Shown: positions 7,150 to 63,929, counted from the stretch's first letter. The stretch is 64,000 bases of DNA from an uncultured Lentisphaerota bacterium (GCA_900320225.1 ONRL01000005.1:1-64000), one strand, 5' to 3'. Numbers and translations: made by a program. Notes: generated by a model from the letters alone, not told the origin.

Positions 7150-7254
7150 AGGACAAAGGACAGATGACAAAGGACAAAGTATGGAGGTGCCCCATTCGGT
7201 CGCGCAGGAGCGCGACCCTCCCGCCTTTGTCTTCCGTCTTCTGTCCTTTGTCCT
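7150..7254. repeat. Composite inverted repeat: AGGACAAAG arms around a family A palindrome
   Basis: A 30-base left arm (7150-7179, beginning AGGACAAAGGACAGATGAC) is the imperfect reverse complement of 7225-7254, with about 26 of 30 positions pairing. Between them, at 7198-7217, lies a perfect family A palindrome GGTCGCGC-AGGA-GCGCGACC followed by CTCCC. The whole unit fills the gap between two secreted-protein genes and could fold into one long hairpin with an internal one. Confidence 0.7.
7198..7217 (+). repeat. Family A palindrome (T-A stem variant)
   Basis: Perfect 8-bp stem GGTCGCGC / GCGCGACC with loop AGGA, followed by CTCCC. The third base pair is T-A instead of the A-T found in most copies, a compensatory change. 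Confidence 0.8.
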
Positions 7255-26420: not shown

Positions 26421-27401
26421 ATGATCGAACTGTCCGCACTGACCATTGAGTCTGTCTTCGGCTGCGTACCCGCGTGCGCGGCCGACAATCTCGCCATCCT
26501 CTCCGACCTCGTCGGACGCGCGAAGGCCGAGAGCATCGTGCAGGCGACCGGTTTCGCCACGCGCCGCGTGGCCGCCGAGGGACAGGGCGTGTTCGACCTT
26601 GCCCTCCCTGCGGCACGGCGCGCGCTGGCGGGCGTGAAGCCGTCGGAAGTGGGTGGCGTGGTCGCCGTCACGTTCTCGCATCCCGACCGGTTCCCCGCGC
26701 TCGCAATTCGTCTTCAGCATGCGCTCGGCCTGCCACAGGACGTCGCCGCATTCGACCTCGGCCTCGCCTGCAGCGGTTACCCGTATGGACTTCTTGCGGC
26801 TGGACAGCTTGCCGCAGCCACCGGCAAGAAGGTGTTGCTCGTGGACGGCGACGCGCAGAGCGCGCACGTGGACGCGTCCGATCCCAACACGCTCGCCGTG
26901 ATGGGCGACGCCGCCACCGCCACGCTCGTCTCGGCGACGGGCGGTCCCGCACGGTTCGCGTTCCTGACTGACGGCGCAGGCGCGGACGTGCTGCGTTGCG
27001 GCGCGGACGGCAAGATCCGCATGGATGGCTTCGGCGTGTTTCGCTTCGTCGCGGGTCCCGTGACGGAGTTTCTGCGCGCGTTTCTCGCCGAGACGGGCAT
27101 GCCCGATCTCTTCGCGCCGCATCAGGCCAACATGTACATGGTGCGCCAACTCGCGAAGTCGCTCGGTCTTTCGGACCGCCTCCTCACGAGCGGCGAACGG
27201 TACGCCAACCCCGGTTCCTGCTCCGTGCCGCTCACCCTCGCCTCATCATACGGACGCGCAGGAGCGCGTCCCTCCCGGGTGGGTCGCGCTCCTGCGCGAC
27301 CGTCGCGCGCGCTTCTCGCCGGGTTCGGCGCGGGGCTTTCCGCAGCCGCCGCGTCCGTGGAAATCTCTCCCACCTGCGAAAGGGGAGTGGTCGAGTTGTG
27401 A
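26421..27401 (+). CDS. FabH-like 3-oxoacyl-ACP synthase III with palindrome-derived insert
   Basis: 326 residues. The ketosynthase III triad is visible: Cys117 in LACSGY, His234 in FAPHQANM, Asn263 in YANPGSCSVP. The C-terminal GFGAGLS is also conserved. Between the Asn region and ALLAGFGAG, residues about 277-296 are extra. They are encoded by two opposed family A palindromes (27252-27271 and 27282-27301), in frame and read as GRAGARPS and VGRAPARP. The insert falls in a loop ahead of the last core strand, so activity may be retained. The enzyme would condense an acyl-CoA with malonyl-ACP. It overlaps the next gene by GTGA. A role in an envelope lipid is inferred from the neighbours. Confidence 0.85.
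   Translation: MIELSALTIESVFGCVPACAADNLAILSDLVGRAKAESIVQATGFATRRVAAEGQGVFDLALPAARRALAGVKPSEVGGVVAVTFSHPDRFPALAIRLQHALGLPQDVAAFDLGLACSGYPYGLLAAGQLAAATGKKVLLVDGDAQSAHVDASDPNTLAVMGDAATATLVSATGGPARFAFLTDGAGADVLRCGADGKIRMDGFGVFRFVAGPVTEFLRAFLAETGMPDLFAPHQANMYMVRQLAKSLGLSDRLLTSGERYANPGSCSVPLTLASSYGRAGARPSRVGRAPARPSRALLAGFGAGLSAAAASVEISPTCERGVVEL
27252..27301. repeat. Pair of opposed family A palindromes inside the FabH-like gene
   Basis: First copy 27252-27271 (GGACGCGC-AGGA-GCGCGTCC) with CTCCC after it. Second copy 27282-27301 in reverse orientation (GGTCGCGC-TCCT-GCGCGACC). Both stems are perfect. The copies are offset by 30 bases, which keeps the reading frame. Confidence 0.85.
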
Positions 27402-28861
27402 AAATCGCGCTTCTCGGCAACGTCACGCTTGATTTCCTGGCGCAGGATTTCCGCCGCGCGGGACACGACGTGTACGTGCCGCCCGGCTTCGACGCCTGGC
27501 GACAGGAGGTGCTTGACCCCGCGAGCGGACTGCATGTGTTCGCTCCTGATGCCGTGCTGCTTGTGATGGAGGGCGGCGTTTCTCTTGAAGACGAGCGAAT
27601 TATCGGTACTTTTGTGGACGCGCAGGAGCGCGTCCCTCCCCGTCAAGCGGACGCGCAGGAGCGCGTCCCTCCCGTGCGTGTCGTGGTGCCGGATATCGCC
27701 GCGCTCGCCGCCGAGACACCCGGATTCTGGGATGTGCGCATGCGCACGCTCGCGGCGATGCCGTTTTCACTTGCGGGGCTGAAGGCCATTGAGGATGAAT
27801 TCTACTTCGCGCTCGAGGCGGGAGGGCCGCGCTCCTGCGCGGCCGCGGCCAAAAAGATTCTCGCCGTCGATGCGGACAACACGCTCTGGAACGGGATCGT
27901 CTCCGAGGACGGCGCCGATGCCGTGACGCCCTACGTTGATTTCCAGAAGGGGCTTCTCGCACTGAAGGCGCGCGGCGTGTTGCTGGTGTTGCTCTCCAAG
28001 AACGACCCCGTCGGGGAGGGCCGCGCTCCTGCGCGGCCGCCTCTCGCCGCCGCCCTCGCGCGTGCCGACATGCCGATCACCCTCGATGATTTCTCCGCCG
28101 TTCGCGTGAACTGGTCGCCGAAGCCGGGCAATCTGCTTACGGTCTGCCGCGAGCTCAACCTCGGCACGGATTCGGTCGTGTTCGTGGACGACAACCCGCA
28201 CGAGCGCGCGCAGATGAAGGCGCACCTGCCGGAGGTGGCCGTGCCGCCGTTCCCGGCGGATCTGGCCAACCCCGCGCAGTTCCTCCGGCGTCTCGAACGG
28301 TATTTCTTCGCATCCGCCGGCACCACGGCGGAAGACCGTGCGCGTGCCGAGATGTACCGCGCGGAGGCGGCACGACGCGATTTTGCGCGTACGCTGCCGA
28401 CCGTTCAGGATTATCTGAAAGGGTTGCACCTCACGGTGCGCGCCGCGCGCGCCACGGCCGAGGACGTGCCGCGTCTTGCGCAGATGGCCGGCAAGACGAA
28501 CCAGTTCAACGCCACGACGATCCGGCGCACCGCGGAGGAGATGGCGGCGCTCGTCGCCGATCCGGCGCACCGCGTGTGGACGTTCCGCGCGGGCGATGCC
28601 TTCGGGGAGATGGGGCTTGTGTGCTACGTGGTCTACGACTGCGCCACGGCGCGCATCTCCGACTTCGTGATGAGCTGCCGCGCGATGGGGCGCACGCTCG
28701 AGCACTTCGCCGTCAACCACGTGCGCCGGGAACTTGCCGCCGAAGGCCTGGCCCTTGCCGGCATCGACTGTGTCCCCACCGCGAAGAACGGTCCGTTCCG
28801 CGAATTTCTCGCGACTCTCGATCTTTCTCGCGACGCCGTGACATGGTATGGTGAACGCTAG
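27398..28861 (+). CDS. FkbH-like HAD-IIIC family protein carrying four palindrome inserts
   Basis: 487 residues from a GTG that overlaps the previous stop. HAD phosphatase motif DADNTLWNG (158-166), LLSKNDP (199-204) and DSVVFVDDNPHER, followed by a C-terminal GNAT-like half (ARATAEDVPRLAQMAGKTNQFN). This is the layout of FkbH proteins, which load glyceryl groups onto acyl carrier proteins. Four in-frame family A elements add residues: about 73-93 (VDAQERVPP twice), 141-150 (GGPRSCAAA) and 205-216 (EGRAPARPP). None hits a recognised catalytic motif. It is probably co-expressed with the ketosynthase. No ACP gene is visible nearby. Confidence 0.85.
   Translation: MKIALLGNVTLDFLAQDFRRAGHDVYVPPGFDAWRQEVLDPASGLHVFAPDAVLLVMEGGVSLEDERIIGTFVDAQERVPPRQADAQERVPPVRVVVPDIAALAAETPGFWDVRMRTLAAMPFSLAGLKAIEDEFYFALEAGGPRSCAAAAKKILAVDADNTLWNGIVSEDGADAVTPYVDFQKGLLALKARGVLLVLLSKNDPVGEGRAPARPPLAAALARADMPITLDDFSAVRVNWSPKPGNLLTVCRELNLGTDSVVFVDDNPHERAQMKAHLPEVAVPPFPADLANPAQFLRRLERYFFASAGTTAEDRARAEMYRAEAARRDFARTLPTVQDYLKGLHLTVRAARATAEDVPRLAQMAGKTNQFNATTIRRTAEEMAALVADPAHRVWTFRAGDAFGEMGLVCYVVYDCATARISDFVMSCRAMGRTLEHFAVNHVRRELAAEGLALAGIDCVPTAKNGPFREFLATLDLSRDAVTWYGER
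27616..27668 (+). repeat. Tandem pair of family A palindromes in the FkbH-like gene
   Basis: Two perfect copies of GGACGCGC-AGGA-GCGCGTCC, at 27616-27635 and 27649-27668, each followed by CTCCC. They are offset by 33 bases, so both keep the frame and both are read as DAQERVPP. Confidence 0.88.
27825..27844 (-). repeat. Family A palindrome (C-G stem variant)
   Basis: GGCCGCGC-TCCT-GCGCGGCC, perfect stem, preceded by GGGAG. The third pair is C-G, the third distinct pairing seen at this stem position. It is read in frame as GPRSCAAA just before the HAD motif. Confidence 0.82.
28019..28038 (-). repeat. Family A palindrome (C-G stem variant)
   Basis: GGCCGCGC-TCCT-GCGCGGCC, perfect stem, preceded by GGGAG. 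It is inserted after the LLSKNDP motif of the FkbH-like protein and read as EGRAPARPP. Confidence 0.82.
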
Positions 28862-57422: not shown

Positions 57423-58550
57423 ATGAAGCTGGAAGCCTATAAGAATAAGCGCGTCCTTGTGACGGGGCATACGGGCTTCAAGGGATCGTGGCTCTGCGAA
57501 TGGCTCTTGGCACTCGGTGCGGAAGTGCATGGCTTCGCCCTTGAGCCGCCCACGAGGCCGAGCCTGTTCAAGCAGCTGAAGTTGGCAAGGCGGATAGCAT
57601 CCCATACGATCGGCGATGTGCGCGATTTGCCGGCGGTTGTGCGTACGATGCGCCGCGTGAAGCCGGATTTCATCTTTCATCTGGCCGCCCAGCCGCTCGT
57701 GAGGCTTTCGTATGAGAAGCCGGTTGATACCTTTGAAACGAATGTGATGGGCACCGTGAATGTGCTGGAGGCTGCAAGGCGGGTTTATGGCCTTGGCCGA
57801 ACACAGTTCGGCCATCAGGACTGTGGATGCGGGCATAAGAGCAATGGGCATCGCCTCTCCATTATCTGCATCACCACCGATAAATGCTACGAGAATCGGG
57901 AAACATCGCACCCCTATCGGGAAAATGAGCCAATGGGCGGCTACGATCCCTATAGCTGCTCGAAGGGGTGTGATGAACTGTTGATTTCATCCTATCGGCG
58001 ATCCTTCTTCGGCACGTCCGATTCGCCCGTGTGGGTGGCATCGGCGCGGGCCGGCAATGTGATCGGCGGCGGCGACTGGGCGAAGGATCGGATTGTGCCC
58101 GATTGCATGAGGGCACTGGCGAAAGGGCAGCCGATACCGGTTAGGAACAAAGTGTCGACGCGTCCGTGGCAGCACGTGTTGGAGCCGTTGAGCGGTTATT
58201 TGACGCTCGGCGCGGCAGTGGCGGCGCGTGAGCGATTCGACGAAGTATGCGGCGGCTTCAACTTCGGCCCCGATCCAAAGGATAACAGAACGGTGAGGGA
58301 GCTGGTCGAGGAAATTCTCAAATGGCGCGCGGGTGCTTGGGTGGATAGGAGCGATCCTGCGGCCGTCCATGAGGCGGGGTTGCTGAACCTCGACATCCGC
58401 AAGGCACGGCGTATCCTTGGCTGGAAGCCCAGGTGGGGATTTGAAGAGACTGTGCGGCAGACCGCCGATTGGTATAGCTCTGTAGAAAACGGGGCCGATC
58501 CGATTGAGATAACGCAACGGCAGATTGGGGAGTATACATTAAGGACCTGA
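57423..58550 (+). CDS. rfbG: CDP-glucose 4,6-dehydratase with palindrome-derived insert
   Basis: 375 residues. Extended SDR: TGHTGFKGSWL near 14-24, HLAAQPLVRLSY, and YSCSK (Tyr177, Lys181). It converts CDP-glucose to CDP-4-keto-6-deoxyglucose. Residues about 122-144 (YGLGRTQFGHQ...) are absent from normal family members. They are encoded by a family B palindrome and its flanks (57795-57813), placed between EAARRV and the SIICITTDKCYEN strand, so the insert sits in a surface turn before a conserved strand. Confidence 0.92.
   Translation: MKLEAYKNKRVLVTGHTGFKGSWLCEWLLALGAEVHGFALEPPTRPSLFKQLKLARRIASHTIGDVRDLPAVVRTMRRVKPDFIFHLAAQPLVRLSYEKPVDTFETNVMGTVNVLEAARRVYGLGRTQFGHQDCGCGHKSNGHRLSIICITTDKCYENRETSHPYRENEPMGGYDPYSCSKGCDELLISSYRRSFFGTSDSPVWVASARAGNVIGGGDWAKDRIVPDCMRALAKGQPIPVRNKVSTRPWQHVLEPLSGYLTLGAAVAARERFDEVCGGFNFGPDPKDNRTVRELVEEILKWRAGAWVDRSDPAAVHEAGLLNLDIRKARRILGWKPRWGFEETVRQTADWYSSVENGADPIEITQRQIGEYTLRT
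57795..57813 (+). repeat. Family B palindrome inside rfbG
   Basis: GGCCGAAC-ACA-GTTCGGCC, perfect 8-bp stem, followed by ATCA. Read in frame as GRTQFGHQ. Confidence 0.85.
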
Positions 58551-58552
58551 CG

Positions 58553-59890
58553 ATGACATCTGAAGAGCTCAAGAAAGAGATTCTCGAAAAGACGGCGGAA
58601 TACTACCGGCTCGTCCATCAGGCGAAGCAGAAGGAGCCTTTTGTTCCCGGCAAGTCGCGCGTGAACTATGCGGGCCGCGTGTTCGACGAACGCGAGATGC
58701 AGAACCTCGTCGACGCATCGCTGGAATTCTGGCTCACGTACGGCCATTGGTCGCGTCAGTTTGAGAAGGGACTTGCCGAATACTTGGGCGTGCGTTTTGC
58801 TCTGCTCGTGAACTCCGGATCCTCTGCCAACCTCCTCGCGTTCATGACGTTGACCTCGCCGCTTCTCGGCGAGCGGCAGGTGAAACGCGGCGACGAGGTG
58901 ATCACGGTCGCGGCTGGCTTCCCCACCACGATTGCGCCGATCGTGCAATACGGCGCCGTGCCGGTGTTCGTGGATGTGGAGCTCGGCACGGTAAATATCG
59001 ATGCGTCGCAGCTTGAAGGGGCCTGGTCGCCGAAGACGAAGGCCGTGATGCTTGCGCACACGCTCGGCAATCCGTTCAACATCAAGGCCGTGAAAGCCTT
59101 TTGCGAGAAGCGCAACCTCTGGCTGATCGAGGATAATTGCGACGCGCTCGGCTCGAAGTACGACGGCAAGTTCACCGGCACGTGGGGCGATATCGGTACG
59201 TCGAGCTTCTATCCGCCGCACCACATGACGATGGGCGAGGGCGGGGCGGTCTACACGGATAATCCGCTCCTCAAGAAGATCGCGCTCTCAATCCGCGACT
59301 GGGGGCGTGACTGCTGGTGTGAATCGGGTGTTGATAACACCTGCGGCTGCCGCTTCACGAAGCAGTTCGGCTCGCTTCCACTCGGCTACGATCACAAATA
59401 TGTGTATTCGCACTTCGGCTACAACCTCAAGGCGACCGATTTGCAAGCGGCGATCGGCTGCGCGCAGCTGGAGAAATTCCCGTCGTTCGTGGAGGCGCGG
59501 AAGCGGAATTTCGCGCGCCTCTACGAGGGATTGAAGGATTTGCCGCAGATCCGCCTCTTCGAGAAATACCCTGAAAGCGATCCCTCCTGGTTCGGCTTCT
59601 TGATGACGGTGAAGCCCGATGCCGGCTTCACGCGCAACGATCTCGCGAAGCACCTTGAGGCGGCGAACATCCAGACACGCAACCTCTTTGCAGGCAACAT
59701 CATTCGTCATCCCTGCTTTGAGATGATGCGCGCAAATGTAGATTACCGCATTGCCGGCGAGTTGACGAACACCGACACCATCATGAACTCCTCGCTCTGG
59801 ATCGGTCTTTACCCTGGCATGGGCGAGTCGCGCCTTGACTACATGGTGGATACGATACGCAAGTTCTGTTTGTACGGTGGAGAATCTTAA
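58553..59890 (+). CDS. rfbH: CDP-6-deoxy-4-keto-glucose 3-dehydratase (E1 type)
   Basis: 445 residues. PLP-aminotransferase fold in which the usual Schiff-base Lys is His: SSFYPPHHMTMGEGGAVYT near 217-235, diagnostic of E1/RfbH C3-dehydratases. Cysteines in RDCWC and TCGCRF are candidates for the [2Fe-2S] cluster. It forms the 3-deoxy intermediate of 3,6-dideoxyhexoses and needs an E3-type reductase that is not encoded in this window. Confidence 0.93.
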   Translation: MTSEELKKEILEKTAEYYRLVHQAKQKEPFVPGKSRVNYAGRVFDEREMQNLVDASLEFWLTYGHWSRQFEKGLAEYLGVRFALLVNSGSSANLLAFMTLTSPLLGERQVKRGDEVITVAAGFPTTIAPIVQYGAVPVFVDVELGTVNIDASQLEGAWSPKTKAVMLAHTLGNPFNIKAVKAFCEKRNLWLIEDNCDALGSKYDGKFTGTWGDIGTSSFYPPHHMTMGEGGAVYTDNPLLKKIALSIRDWGRDCWCESGVDNTCGCRFTKQFGSLPLGYDHKYVYSHFGYNLKATDLQAAIGCAQLEKFPSFVEARKRNFARLYEGLKDLPQIRLFEKYPESDPSWFGFLMTVKPDAGFTRNDLAKHLEAANIQTRNLFAGNIIRHPCFEMMRANVDYRIAGELTNTDTIMNSSLWIGLYPGMGESRLDYMVDTIRKFCLYGGES

Positions 59891-59922: not shown

Positions 59923-61743
59923 ATGAGAGTCGCGGATTACATTTGGAAGTTTTTGGCGGAGAAGGGCATACGCCATGTGTTCCTCGTGACAGGGGGCGGC
60001 GCGATGCATCTCAACGATGCGCTTGGGCGCGAAACACGAATTAAATACGTGTGCAATCTTCATGAGCAGGCATGTGCCATGGCGGCGGAGGGATATGCTC
60101 GCCAATCGGGGATGCCGGGGGTAATCAATGTCACGACGGGGCCGGGGGGCACGAATGCCCTTACCGGGGTGATGGGCGCATGGCTTGATTCGGTGCCGAT
60201 GATTGTCATCTCTGGGCAGATCAAGCGCGCGACCATGATTACCTCGTGCCCACAGCTGAAACTTCGGCAGTTGGGGGATCAAGAGTATAACATCGTTGAC
60301 GCGGCACGGCCGATGACGAAGATGGCCAAGACGGTGATGAGCGTGGAGGAAGTGCCAGAGGTGATGGCAGAGGCATGGGAGCTTTGCCAAAGCGGGCGGC
60401 CGGGGCCGGTGTGGATCGACGTGCCGCTCGATATACAGGCGGCGGAGAGTGATTGGCCGGATTGGTCGGATTGGCCGAACACAGTTCGGCCATCAAATCT
60501 GGAGGGGCCATCAAATCTGGATAAGTTTTTGCGACCTGCGCAAAGCGAGATTGATGAAATTGCCTCGCTGTTGAGAAAGGCGAAGCGGCCGGCGGTAATT
60601 GTGGGTTCCGGTGTGCGCAATGCACGAGCCGAGCAATTGTTCCTTGAAGTGGCTGAATCGCTGAATGTTCCGGTGCTTACTTCGATCTCTGGGATTGATC
60701 TAATTCCTTCGGATCATCCGCTGTTCTTCGGGCGTCCAGGTATTTTGGGTGAGCGCCCTGCGAATTTCATCATGCAGAACAGCGATCTGTTCATCGTCAT
60801 CGGCACGCGGATGGGCATTCGCATCTGCGGCTATGCCTCCGAAACGGTGGCACGCAATGCCGTGAAGGTGATGATCGATGTCGACGAAGCGGAATTGAAC
60901 AAGCCAACGTTCCGCCCTGATGTGAAGATACATTCCGATGCCGGAGTTTTTCTGACGGCGCTTCATGCCGCATTGCCCTCATTGCCACCGCAGGAAGAGT
61001 GGTTGGCGTATTGTAGGCGCGTCAAGGCGAAGTTTCCCATGATCTTGCCAGAGTACCGCACACGAACGGACTATGTTTCCAGCTACGTGCTGCCGGAGGC
61101 GATCATGCGCCACGCGCCCGATCCGCTCACGGTTGTGACGGCAAACGGCGTGGCCTATACTTCGACATTCCAGGCGATTCCCATTCGCAAGGGCATGCGG
61201 ATGTTCGCGAACGAGGCGTGTGCCTCGATGGGCTATGGTTTGCCGGCGGCGATCGGGGCGGCGTTTGCAGGCGGCATGGAACGAACTGTCGTATGCCTTG
61301 AGGGCGACGGATCGATTCAAATGAATCTTCAGGAATTGCAGACGGTGCTGAACTACAAGCTCCCGATCAAGCTGTTTGTCTATAATAATGACGGATATCT
61401 TTCGATCAAGACGACACAACGAGCCTTCTTCGGCGGGAAGTTCATGGGCTCTGAGCCGGGATCGGGCGTGATTCTTCCGAGTTTTGAGAAACTTGCGGCG
61501 GCTTATGGATTCCCCTACTTTAAGCTTCGTAACAATCAGGAGTTGGATGCCGAGTTGCCTAAGATTTTTGCGGCAGAAGGTCCTGTGTTCGTGGAGGTCA
61601 TGCTTGATCCATTCGAGGTGCTGGGGCCAAAGGCGGCATCGAAAAGATTGCCAGATGGCACGATGGTTTCGGAGCCGCTCGATAACATGGCGCCGTTCTT
61701 GCCGGAAGAGGAGCGAGTGGCCTGGTCTATCGGCCGAACATAG
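59923..61743 (+). CDS. TPP-dependent enzyme, YerE-like, with two palindrome inserts
   Basis: 606 residues of the acetolactate-synthase family. Catalytic Glu48 in NLHEQACAMAAEGYAR, TTGPGGTNALTG, and TPP site GDGSIQMNLQELQTV near 462 with NNDGYLS. No regulatory small subunit follows. Because it lies directly after rfbFGH, it is more likely a YerE-type enzyme, which adds a two-carbon unit from pyruvate to CDP-3,6-dideoxy-4-keto-glucose, than true IlvB. Residues about 176-200 (DWPNTVRPSNL) come from a family B palindrome in the linker after the PYR domain. A second copy at 61732-61750 supplies the last residues and the TAG stop. Confidence 0.85.
   Translation: MRVADYIWKFLAEKGIRHVFLVTGGGAMHLNDALGRETRIKYVCNLHEQACAMAAEGYARQSGMPGVINVTTGPGGTNALTGVMGAWLDSVPMIVISGQIKRATMITSCPQLKLRQLGDQEYNIVDAARPMTKMAKTVMSVEEVPEVMAEAWELCQSGRPGPVWIDVPLDIQAAESDWPDWSDWPNTVRPSNLEGPSNLDKFLRPAQSEIDEIASLLRKAKRPAVIVGSGVRNARAEQLFLEVAESLNVPVLTSISGIDLIPSDHPLFFGRPGILGERPANFIMQNSDLFIVIGTRMGIRICGYASETVARNAVKVMIDVDEAELNKPTFRPDVKIHSDAGVFLTALHAALPSLPPQEEWLAYCRRVKAKFPMILPEYRTRTDYVSSYVLPEAIMRHAPDPLTVVTANGVAYTSTFQAIPIRKGMRMFANEACASMGYGLPAAIGAAFAGGMERTVVCLEGDGSIQMNLQELQTVLNYKLPIKLFVYNNDGYLSIKTTQRAFFGGKFMGSEPGSGVILPSFEKLAAAYGFPYFKLRNNQELDAELPKIFAAEGPVFVEVMLDPFEVLGPKAASKRLPDGTMVSEPLDNMAPFLPEEERVAWSIGRT
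60473..60491 (+). repeat. Family B palindrome in the TPP enzyme linker
   Basis: GGCCGAAC-ACA-GTTCGGCC, perfect, followed by ATCAAATCTGG twice. Read in frame as WPNTVRPSN. Confidence 0.85.
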
Positions 61744-61750
61744 TTCGGCC
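61732..61750 (+). repeat. Family B palindrome forming the stop of the TPP enzyme gene
   Basis: GGCCGAAC-ATA-GTTCGGCC. Relative to the rfbG copy, loop base C is T, turning ACA-CAG into ACA-TAG in the same frame. It lies 41 bases upstream of the RAYT start. Confidence 0.82.
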
Positions 61751-61791
61751 ATCAAATCTCGCCAGGAGGGGATTTCGGGATCAGGAGAAGA

Positions 61792-63024
61792 ATGAAAGCC
61801 ACTTGCAATATAAAGCGCTATCGGCGGTTTGCGGGCTGGAATTATGCGAAGGGGGCTTCGCTCTTCATCACCATCGCCACGGAGCCGCGAAGGGCGCTTT
61901 TCGGCAAGGTGCGGGGAGATGCGGTGGCGCTTTCGCCGCTGGGGGAGAAGGTGAAGGAAGCGCTTGAGGCGATACCGCGCCTCAATCCCGGCATCCTGCT
62001 TTTCGGCCATGAAGTGATGCCGGATCACGTGCATTTCAACTGCGCGCTGCTGCCGGGGCTTCGCGAGCCGCTGAAGGTGCTGGGAAATGCGATCAGGCGG
62101 TTTAAGAATTATACCACCAAGGTGGCCAAGATGGCTGGCTTGGCCAGATCTGCCGAACATCGTTCGGCCATCAAATCTGGAGAGGCCTTCAAATCAGGCA
62201 GCTCGGGATTTGGCAAAGCCTCTAGCTTTGATGGCCAAACTACGTTTGGCCAAAGTGGCCATCTCTGGCAGCAGGGCTACCACGATTACATCCTGCTTTC
62301 CCGCGAGATGATCGATGCGACCGAGCGCTACATCGCCTACAACCCGCTGAAGTGGGAGCTGATGTATGGCGTGAAGGGGGCGCTTCGCGTGGTCGAGCCG
62401 CTGTTTCTGCCGCGCTTCGATGCCGGCGATTATTGGAAGGGCGTGGGCAACATTGCGCTGCTCGATCAGGGCGAGAAGCTTCTTTCGCTGCGCATCTCGC
62501 GCCAAGTGCAGGGCGCGGCCATGGCCAAGATGCTTGCGCGGATTGAGAGCGCGGTGGATCAGGGCTATGTGATCATCAGCGGCTTTATTTCCAAGGGCGA
62601 GCAGGCGGTGCGCGATATGCTTTGCCGGAGGAGCGATGCGCGCTTCATCCGCATTCTGCCATCGTGCATTCCCAATCGGCGCTTCAGGCCGGAAAGCCGC
62701 TATGCGGGGCCATTCGCCGAGGGGCGCTACCTTGAAATCGCCCAAGGCAACGACGAGGTGGAATTCGGACGGCGCGCCTGCCTCGATATCAACGCCGAGA
62801 TCATCGAGATCGCCACGGCCGGCGATGGGCTGGCGATCTATTGGAAGGGGGATGGGCCGCATGTATTGGCCGAACACAGTTCGGCCATCAATGCTCCTGT
62901 GGGGGTGAATGATCAGGCCAGCAATGTGAGGGGCGGTCATGCATCGCACCAGTACTGCTTACCAGGCTTTGATCCTCGCAACGATGGCCAAACTGGGTTT
63001 GGCCAAAAAAGGAGGGGCCAATGA
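61792..63024 (+). CDS. REP-associated tyrosine transposase (RAYT) with DprA-like C-terminal domain
   Basis: 410 residues; AGGAGAAGA precedes the ATG. The N-terminal Y1 transposase domain has the HUH motif MPDHVHF (His79, His81) and nucleophile Tyr163 in LWQQGYHDYIL followed by ERYIAYNPLKW, all hallmarks of RAYTs, which process REP palindromes. Residues about 116-156, immediately before LWQQGY, come from two opposed family B palindromes. Residues 210-355 form a second domain (LLSLRISRQ, GYVIISGFISKGEQA, RILPSCI, EIIEIA) with the layout of a DprA/SLOG Rossmann fold. The last 50 residues come from two more family B copies. It overlaps the SDR gene by ATGA. Confidence 0.82.
   Translation: MKATCNIKRYRRFAGWNYAKGASLFITIATEPRRALFGKVRGDAVALSPLGEKVKEALEAIPRLNPGILLFGHEVMPDHVHFNCALLPGLREPLKVLGNAIRRFKNYTTKVAKMAGLARSAEHRSAIKSGEAFKSGSSGFGKASSFDGQTTFGQSGHLWQQGYHDYILLSREMIDATERYIAYNPLKWELMYGVKGALRVVEPLFLPRFDAGDYWKGVGNIALLDQGEKLLSLRISRQVQGAAMAKMLARIESAVDQGYVIISGFISKGEQAVRDMLCRRSDARFIRILPSCIPNRRFRPESRYAGPFAEGRYLEIAQGNDEVEFGRRACLDINAEIIEIATAGDGLAIYWKGDGPHVLAEHSSAINAPVGVNDQASNVRGGHASHQYCLPGFDPRNDGQTGFGQKRRGQ
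62151..62169 (+). repeat. Family B palindrome within the RAYT gene
   Basis: TGCCGAAC-ATC-GTTCGGCC, one terminal stem mismatch, followed by ATCAAATCTGG. Read in frame as AEHRSAIKSG. Confidence 0.8.
62233..62251 (-). repeat. Family B palindrome, reverse orientation, A-T stem variant
   Basis: GGCCAAAC-TAC-GTTTGGCC, perfect stem, preceded by TTTGAT. The fifth pair is A-T where other copies have G-C, a compensatory change. Read as DGQTTFGQ. Confidence 0.82.
62868..62886 (+). repeat. Family B palindrome near the RAYT 3' end
   Basis: GGCCGAAC-ACA-GTTCGGCC, perfect, followed by ATCAA. Read as LAEHSSAIN. Confidence 0.85.
62986..63004 (-). repeat. Family B palindrome at the RAYT/SDR boundary
   Basis: GGCCAAAC-TGG-GTTTGGCC, perfect stem with the A-T variant, preceded by CGAT. 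Reverse orientation. Read as DGQTGFGQ. Confidence 0.82.
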
Positions 63025-63929
63025 GGCGCATCTTCATCACCGGTGGCACCGGATTCTTCGGGAAATCGATGCTCGATTACCGGCTACGCCACCCTGATTG
63101 GGAATGGGCGCAGGCGGAATGGATCATTCTCTCGCGCTCGCCCGAGCGCTTTGTTGCGGTGCATCCGCAGCTCGCGAATCAGCCGGGCGTATCATTCGCC
63201 GCCGGCGATGTGCGCGATTTCGCCTTCTCGCAAGGGCCGTTCGATGCCATCATCCATGCCGCCACAAGCGCGGTTACCACGCTTTCCGACGCCGAAATGA
63301 CCAGCGTGATACTGGACGGCGCGCGGCATGTGGCCGATTTCGCCAAAGCTGCTGGCTGCCGCACGATTCTTTTCACAAGCTCAGGCGCGGTCTATGGGCC
63401 GCGAACGACGCCGGCCTCCGAAAGCGATGCGTGCAATCCCGCAACCGCATACGGCAAGGGAAAGCTGGCGGCGGAGCGGATGCTCGCGGAAACGGGGTTG
63501 GATGTGAAGATCGCCCGCTGCTTCGCCTTCACCGGACCGTATCTCAATCGCGGCATCCACTTTGCCATCGGCAACTTCATCCAGGATTGCCTGGATGGCA
63601 AGCCTATCATCATCAACGGCGATGGCACGCCGCTTCGCAGCTACCTTTATGCCGATGACCTCGTTAAATGGCTCTTTACAATTCTCGAGCGAGGTGAGGC
63701 AGGGCGGCCCTACAACGTGGGATCGGCAGAAGCGCTCTCCATCCGCGCCTTGGCGGAGAAGGTGCGGTCGGCGTTGGGGGCGAACAATGAAATCAAGGTG
63801 CTGGGCGTGCCAACAGGAGAAGCTCCGTCTGTGTATGTGCCAGAGATTGGGCGTGCCCGGCAGGAGTTGGGGCTCGTGGAGGGCGTTCCGCTAGAGCAGG
63901 CCATTCTCCGTACATGTAACGGTGTGTGA
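63021..63929 (+). CDS. NAD(P)-dependent SDR, possible YerF-like reductase
   Basis: 302 residues, start overlapping the RAYT stop. ITGGTGFFGKSML at the N-terminus, HAATSAVTTL, and the catalytic YGKGK (YxxxK) near 151. An extended SDR acting on a nucleotide sugar. After rfbFGH and a YerE-like enzyme the expected final step is reduction of the C2-branched CDP-sugar, the YerF role; epimerisation is the alternative. The RAYT gene separates it from its presumed operon partners. Confidence 0.82.
   Translation: MRRIFITGGTGFFGKSMLDYRLRHPDWEWAQAEWIILSRSPERFVAVHPQLANQPGVSFAAGDVRDFAFSQGPFDAIIHAATSAVTTLSDAEMTSVILDGARHVADFAKAAGCRTILFTSSGAVYGPRTTPASESDACNPATAYGKGKLAAERMLAETGLDVKIARCFAFTGPYLNRGIHFAIGNFIQDCLDGKPIIINGDGTPLRSYLYADDLVKWLFTILERGEAGRPYNVGSAEALSIRALAEKVRSALGANNEIKVLGVPTGEAPSVYVPEIGRARQELGLVEGVPLEQAILRTCNGV

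Follow-up and report, generated by a model that had tools for sequence, protein, structure and literature searches.

A REP-associated tyrosine transposase with a DprA-like C-terminal domain and in-frame hairpins inside its own gene

We describe a gene that encodes a Y1/HUH REP-associated transposase (RAYT) of 410 residues, in which the transposase domain is followed by a DprA-like domain. We estimate a probability of roughly 0.6 that it represents a new RAYT subclass that moves pairs of REP-type hairpins, compatible with coding sequence, as single strands. The host is a rumen bacterium whose nearest named relatives are rumen Kiritimatiellae MAGs. The stretch of DNA analyzed, hereafter the window, is the first 64 kb (64,000 nucleotides) of contig C131 in a 5.2-Mb genome that is 95% complete. 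Table 1 lists the features of the locus.

Table 1. Genes, domains, residues and family-B hairpins of the locus, in coordinates of the window
Feature	Position	Strand	Evidence or remark
NDP-sugar 4,6-dehydratase-like gene, sugar operon	57423..58550	+	Pfam GDP_Man_Dehyd 2e-37
Family-B hairpin inside the sugar-nucleotide dehydratase gene, in frame	57795..57817	-	L049 has a 67-aa triple insert there; L059 is empty
DegT/DnrJ (RfbH-like) gene, sugar operon	58553..59890	+	Pfam PF01041 1.3e-87
TPP-dependent enzyme gene, sugar operon	59923..61743	+	Pfam TPP_enzyme N/M/C
Family-B hairpin inside the TPP-enzyme gene, in frame in a linker	60473..60495	-	Linker differs from, and is 7 aa longer than, that in L050
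Family-B hairpin upstream of the RAYT	61732..61754 (with foot)	-	Contains the TPP-enzyme stop codon; palindrome ends 41 bases before the RAYT start
RAYT-DprA fusion CDS, 410 aa	61792..63024	+	ORF; stop overlaps the next gene's start by 4 nt
Y1/HUH transposase domain, residues 9-201, split by the hairpin-coded loop	61816..62394	+	AlphaFold2 mostly >90 outside the loop; Foldseek
HUH motif, His79-Val-His81	62026..62034	+	Conserved in 71/71 homologues
In-frame loop insert, residues 116-156 (inverted hairpin pair and spacer)	62137..62259	+	DNA fold z -6.4
Family-B hairpin, first of the loop pair	62151..62173	-	Family-B search
Family-B hairpin, second of the loop pair	62229..62251	+	Family-B search
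Predicted catalytic Tyr180 in YIAYNP	62329..62331	+	Tyr in 70/71; helix 171-192, after the loop
DprA-like Rossmann domain, residues 206-362	62407..62877	+	AlphaFold2, fold search, hhalign
Arg237, aligning with the GTR-motif arginine of DprA	62500..62502	+	65/71 conserved; alignment with HpDprA GTRR
Family-B hairpin in the C-terminal tail	62868..62890	-	Family-B search
Family-B hairpin, 3' end of the RAYT gene	62982..63004	+	A ribosome-binding-site-like GGAGG for the epimerase lies just after it
NAD-dependent epimerase gene	63021..63929	+	Pfam PF01370 7.9e-34

The Y1 transposase domain

The NCBIfam model REP_Tyr_transpos (NF047646) matches the ORF at 1.7e-10 with 41 bits, a score below its curated cut-off of 80 bits, and Pfam Y1_Tnp matches the N-terminal part at 0.022. 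A direct sequence search of the PDB with the single protein as query returned nothing; matches needed profiles. AlphaFold2, given 71 homologues, predicted the whole protein with a pLDDT of 83.4, and Foldseek matched the Y1 domain to E. coli TnpAREP (4er8, 6.5e-5) and also to the TnpA proteins of ISDra2 and IS608, i.e., the Y1 fold of the TnpAY1/RAYT superfamily.

The identification as a RAYT with intact Y1 motifs, made in a preliminary description from the sequence alone, is therefore borne out by the fold and by the invariant HUH histidines; the aspartate of the DHVH motif is present in 69 of the 71 homologues. The same description had named Tyr163 as the catalytic residue. This position holds Tyr in 57 and Phe in 10 of the 71 homologues, which rules it out, and Tyr180 is predicted instead; by position it corresponds to Tyr115 of E. 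coli TnpAREP.

Values of dN/dS were 0.09-0.25 (all <0.26) for both domains where computable, which shows that both are under purifying selection and rules out a pseudogene. An assembly artefact is unlikely because many independent MAGs have the identical architecture, and a scan of viral_contigs for viral carriage found no relative.

The DprA-like C-terminal domain

When residues 206-362 were folded alone, AlphaFold2 reached a pLDDT of 92.7. The best 14 matches in a fold search of the PDB were all DprA relatives, including ShosA (2.5e-6), H. pylori DprA with ssDNA (3.0e-5) and the DprA proteins of S. pneumoniae and R. palustris, while non-DprA SLOG proteins (LOG/YgdH-type) reached E-values of about 0.05 or worse. 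The resemblance to DprA/SLOG suggested earlier is thus confirmed at the level of the predicted fold, which came out as DprA/Rossmann when checked against Rossmann/SLOG.

The signal in the sequence is fainter. Neither Pfam nor NCBIfam gave a match for the C-terminal part, and a search of the genome with PF02481 (DNA_processg_A) returned no RAYT among its matches. In a PDB profile search DprA took the first four places, yet with E-values of 0.03-0.06, and hhalign against a DprA profile of related genomes gave an E-value of 0.0011 over 104 collinear columns with Prob 20%. Taken by itself, the sequence makes homology to DprA marginal, and the argument for it is therefore a structural one. In the alignment, Arg237 falls on the arginine of the GTR motif, which binds ssDNA in HpDprA. 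Arg327 is conserved in 68 of 71 homologues; it lies beyond the columns that hhalign aligned, and on our comparison of the sequences it may be the RNR arginine of DprA. Where DprA has the motif SGxAxGID, the fusion family has SGFISxGE.

DprA hands single-stranded DNA to RecA, and the domain described here may hold ssDNA or recruit or load RecA. An ordinary DprA is encoded elsewhere in the genome, and comM and comEC lie within the window, about 20 kb from the RAYT gene. It is also conceivable, though in our judgment rather unlikely, that the domain is a SLOG-type ligand-binding or dimerization module that is only shaped like DprA, with no ssDNA or RecA function; such a module is compatible with our best explanation of the Y1 half. 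The replaced SGxAxGID motif and the lack of a Pfam or NCBIfam match would fit this possibility, as would TM-scores of about 0.65 at most against the fold matches. However, DprA relatives outrank every LOG/YgdH-type protein, and the arginine at the ssDNA-binding GTR position is kept in nearly all homologues.

At four loci (L219-L222, in G046, G050, G037 and G200) the family profile matches over its DprA-like half only, possibly marking a standalone domain; a motif scan of these four loci gave no match.

Family-B hairpins at the locus and in the genome

The hairpins at the locus, which we call family B, consist of a fixed TGAT foot and an 8-bp stem, and occur in inverted pairs as REP/REPIN elements do. 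Using the consensus TGAT-GGCCRARC-NNN-GYTYGGCC with one mismatch allowed, we counted 12 copies in the genome, against 0 for a reversed-pattern control. REPs and REPINs are typically of high copy number and mostly extragenic, whereas most of the family-B copies examined sit in coding sequence. Seven of the 12 copies fall within 5.2 kb (57.8-63.0 kb of the window), and five are elsewhere in the genome. The binomial probability of such clustering in 5.2 Mb, calculated by hand, is ~1e-13; a test that included one copy more gave 1e-16.

Four of the seven copies at the locus form two inverted pairs inside the gene (62151/62229 and 62868/62982), both with the TGAT feet inward as in REPINs. The first pair sits between the HUH and Tyr motifs, in an insert placed after alphaC and before beta4. 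All placements given in the preliminary description were recovered, namely the hairpin 41 bases upstream, the opposed pairs within the gene and at its 3' end, and the copies in the coding sequence of neighbors (57795 and 60473). The hairpin-coded stretches are predicted to be disordered: pLDDT is <50 for residues 133-154 of the loop insert, which short-loop homologues lack, and for residues 372-410, where the tail hairpins lie.

Folded as single-stranded DNA, single hairpins are about 6 SD better than shuffles. Stems are 94.8% paired, and among these related copies there are 51 double changes versus 13 in shuffles (0/500). This covariation might stem from elements having been replaced, and not from selection in place.

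Dispersed copies are found in frame at two sites in uvrA and in the genes of a C10 peptidase and of valS-like and metG-like synthetases. Five of the six reading frames through the element are open, and all five are used in different genes. At the first uvrA site, the host genome (G000), G006, G011 and G013 carry an insert and others lack it; at the second, G000 and G011 carry one and G006 and G013 do not. No recent hairpin insertion was seen in any strain pair. The UvrA loops of related species, with or without in-frame palindromes at the two sites, can be compared at L127:2703-5588, L133, L139 and L177-L189.

The genome also holds a second hairpin family, GGWCGCGCAGGAGCGCGWCC with a CTCCC foot, at 7198 and 27252-28038 of the window and genome-wide, with 574 matches at up to 3 mismatches and 0 in the control. 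It is a classical abundant REP family.

Position of the gene in a sugar operon

In the window the RAYT gene lies within a sugar operon (Table 1), and polysaccharide-type neighbors accompany at least 11 of about 16 close homologues. L048, L049, L050 and L052 likewise have the gene directly upstream of the epimerase gene. Its immediate upstream neighbor is the TPP-enzyme gene in all of these but L048, where other ORFs intervene. The N-terminus of the epimerase carries an in-frame hairpin in L048-L050. At L059, a homologous operon, the RAYT lies between the dehydratase and RfbH-like genes. The two operons therefore differ in the junction that the RAYT occupies, each junction being empty in the other: dehydratase-RfbH in the window and TPP-epimerase at L059.

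This setting raises the question of whether the protein is a domesticated regulator, which would bind hairpins, as DNA or mRNA, in its own gene and its neighbors and so tune the sugar operon, transposition being rare or over. The position tightly inside polysaccharide operons, with 4-nt overlaps, is consistent with such a role, as are the low copy number of the hairpins, the retention of hairpin pairs at matching places in homologues, and the location of the 3' pair just before the epimerase ribosome-binding site. However, members of the element family are scattered in unrelated genes of the genome, and their sites differ between relatives, so we consider regulation of this kind an unlikely explanation.

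Distribution among relatives

In our sample of the phylum, 67 of 289 genomes match the fusion at E<=1e-20, and by our reading of the match table for these 289 genomes, roughly 95 places cover both domains. Relatives in gut Bacteroidales also align over the C-terminal domain, and the host genome has at least six further homologues. A MAG labelled Paludibacteraceae (L058) has a RAYT about 62% identical to that of the window, by gene transfer or mis-binning.

Among the 71 homologues, hairpins are about eight times denser in the alphaC-beta4 loop (10.0/kb) than in the protein core (1.2/kb), with 4.4/kb in the tail. Homologues with loops of at most 9 residues have no loop hairpins, and feet-inward inverted pairs occur in about ten RAYT loops. 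A family-B-type hairpin is carried by 19 of the 26 RAYTs that are at least 54% identical to that of the window, versus 3 of the 45 others (Fisher p 8e-9, at an identity threshold picked after seeing the data). Other RAYT clades carry hairpins of their own, and each clade tends to own a hairpin family.

At L128:6256-7173 (G000:C293) the host genome encodes a RAYT that has no DprA domain, and this gene and its flanks hold 14 matches to hairpin family A. The matches are in frame and arranged as inverted pairs, some of them lying between the HUH and Tyr motifs, so self-invasion occurs a second time in the genome.

It had been suggested that the occurrence of family B in relatives that lack a RAYT would bear on the pairing. 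This expectation held in part: genomes with no RAYT match at E<=1e-10 have at most 2 copies, but G009, G011, G013 and G015 have 6-10 copies and only distant RAYTs, so the pairing with family B is not exclusive. A simpler rule, that any RAYT explains family B, fails since many genomes with RAYTs have other hairpins and zero family-B copies.

These four genomes might indicate that another agent spread the hairpins, or that their spread is old, and that the RAYT in the window is not their enzyme. Some uvrA insertions are common to several species and are therefore old, which would agree with this. Nonetheless, the hairpins cluster at the RAYT locus, the RAYT clade and the hairpin family match strongly, and other RAYTs likewise carry hairpins of their own; we therefore regard a separate agent as very unlikely.

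Proposed mechanism

We propose that the RAYT-DprA protein probably recognizes the hairpin formed by the TGAT foot and 8-bp stem, and that Tyr180 would cut single-stranded DNA at the foot. Inverted pairs would then move in single-stranded form, the route proposed for TnpAREP and IS200/IS605, and the DprA-like domain would probably hold the strand or recruit RecA before the strand is joined elsewhere. As five of the element's six frames are open, insertions into flexible protein loops, including those of the transposase itself, would survive, and the transposase gene would thereby carry its own substrate.

We favor this explanation because of the Y1 fold and motifs, the DprA fold and the purifying selection; because the hairpins are biased to loops, match the RAYT clade, form inverted pairs and show double changes in their stems; and because uvrA sites are occupied or empty, five frames are used and RAYT junctions differ. 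Against it stand the 12 genome copies, far fewer than is usual for REPs; a foot of TGAT rather than GTAG; the four relatives with several copies and no close RAYT; and the weakness of the DprA homology by sequence alone.

A more elaborate version seems distinctly unlikely to us as a whole. It would be a self-contained system of single-strand mobility, in which the Y1 domain excises the pairs and the DprA-like domain loads RecA, taking the strand to chosen or homologous sites, and in which elements open in five frames are a source of flexible linkers, mainly in surface-polysaccharide operons.

Comparison with known systems

REPs in frame inside tnpAREP genes have been described for TnpAREP/RAYT subclass 2.4 (Quentin et al. 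2018, PMC6006769). Like the fusion, members of this subclass have a Y1 enzyme, a W-Q motif, in-frame REPs between the HUH and Tyr motifs, and REPs that also flank the gene. However, they have the motifs NH[IFV]H and YIxNNP and no C-terminal tail, whereas the fusion has DHVH, YIAYNP and a DprA-like tail of 150 residues, so it shares the in-frame REPs of subclass 2.4 and not its motifs or lack of a tail. The insert is also placed differently, between beta3 and alphaC in subclass 2.4 (PMC6006769). One homologue, L216 (G001:C409), has its repeat-coded insert where that subclass is described to have it, between the HUH strand and alphaC. The combination of the fusion's motif set with a large DprA-like tail is in no listed TnpAREP subclass.

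E. coli TnpAREP (4er8) shares with the fusion the Y1 fold, the HUH motif and a catalytic Tyr in YIxxNP; it differs in having 165 residues, no extra domain, and REPs scattered outside genes. DprA (H. pylori 4ljl, S. pneumoniae 3uqz) and ShosA (8zva) resemble the tail in Rossmann fold, strand order and the Arg at the GTR place. The tail is only 14-17% identical to them, is shorter, has SGFISxGE and no SAM or winged-helix domain, and is fused to a transposase.

In-frame palindromes inside proteins are known from the REPs of Opitutus terrae, including intragenic REPs in uvrA, and from the RPEs of Rickettsia (Di Nocera et al. 2013, PMC3733652). Family B is similar in both its in-frame placement and in having uvrA among its hosts. 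It differs in its foot, TGAT as opposed to GTAG and CGTC, and for CGTC repeats no association with transposase genes is reported (PMC3733652), whereas a transposase of the matching clade is present for family B. The idea in the preliminary description that known REPs are solely intergenic is thus contradicted by those published in tnpAREP genes (PMC6006769) and in uvrA (PMC3733652). We found no RAYT-DprA fusion in the open-access full-text journal literature searched. As far as this literature extends, the DprA fusion is new, while in-frame REPs in RAYT genes were already known.

Significance

RAYTs cut hairpins, while the movement of REP elements is still unsettled, and we know of no account of the fate of the strand after RAYT cleavage. 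A widespread natural RAYT-DprA fusion under purifying selection suggests that what follows cleavage may be protection of the single strand or loading of RecA, and a single protein would suffice to test this. The family also supplies many natural examples of proteins that tolerate mobile palindromes, among them the very enzyme presumed to move these.
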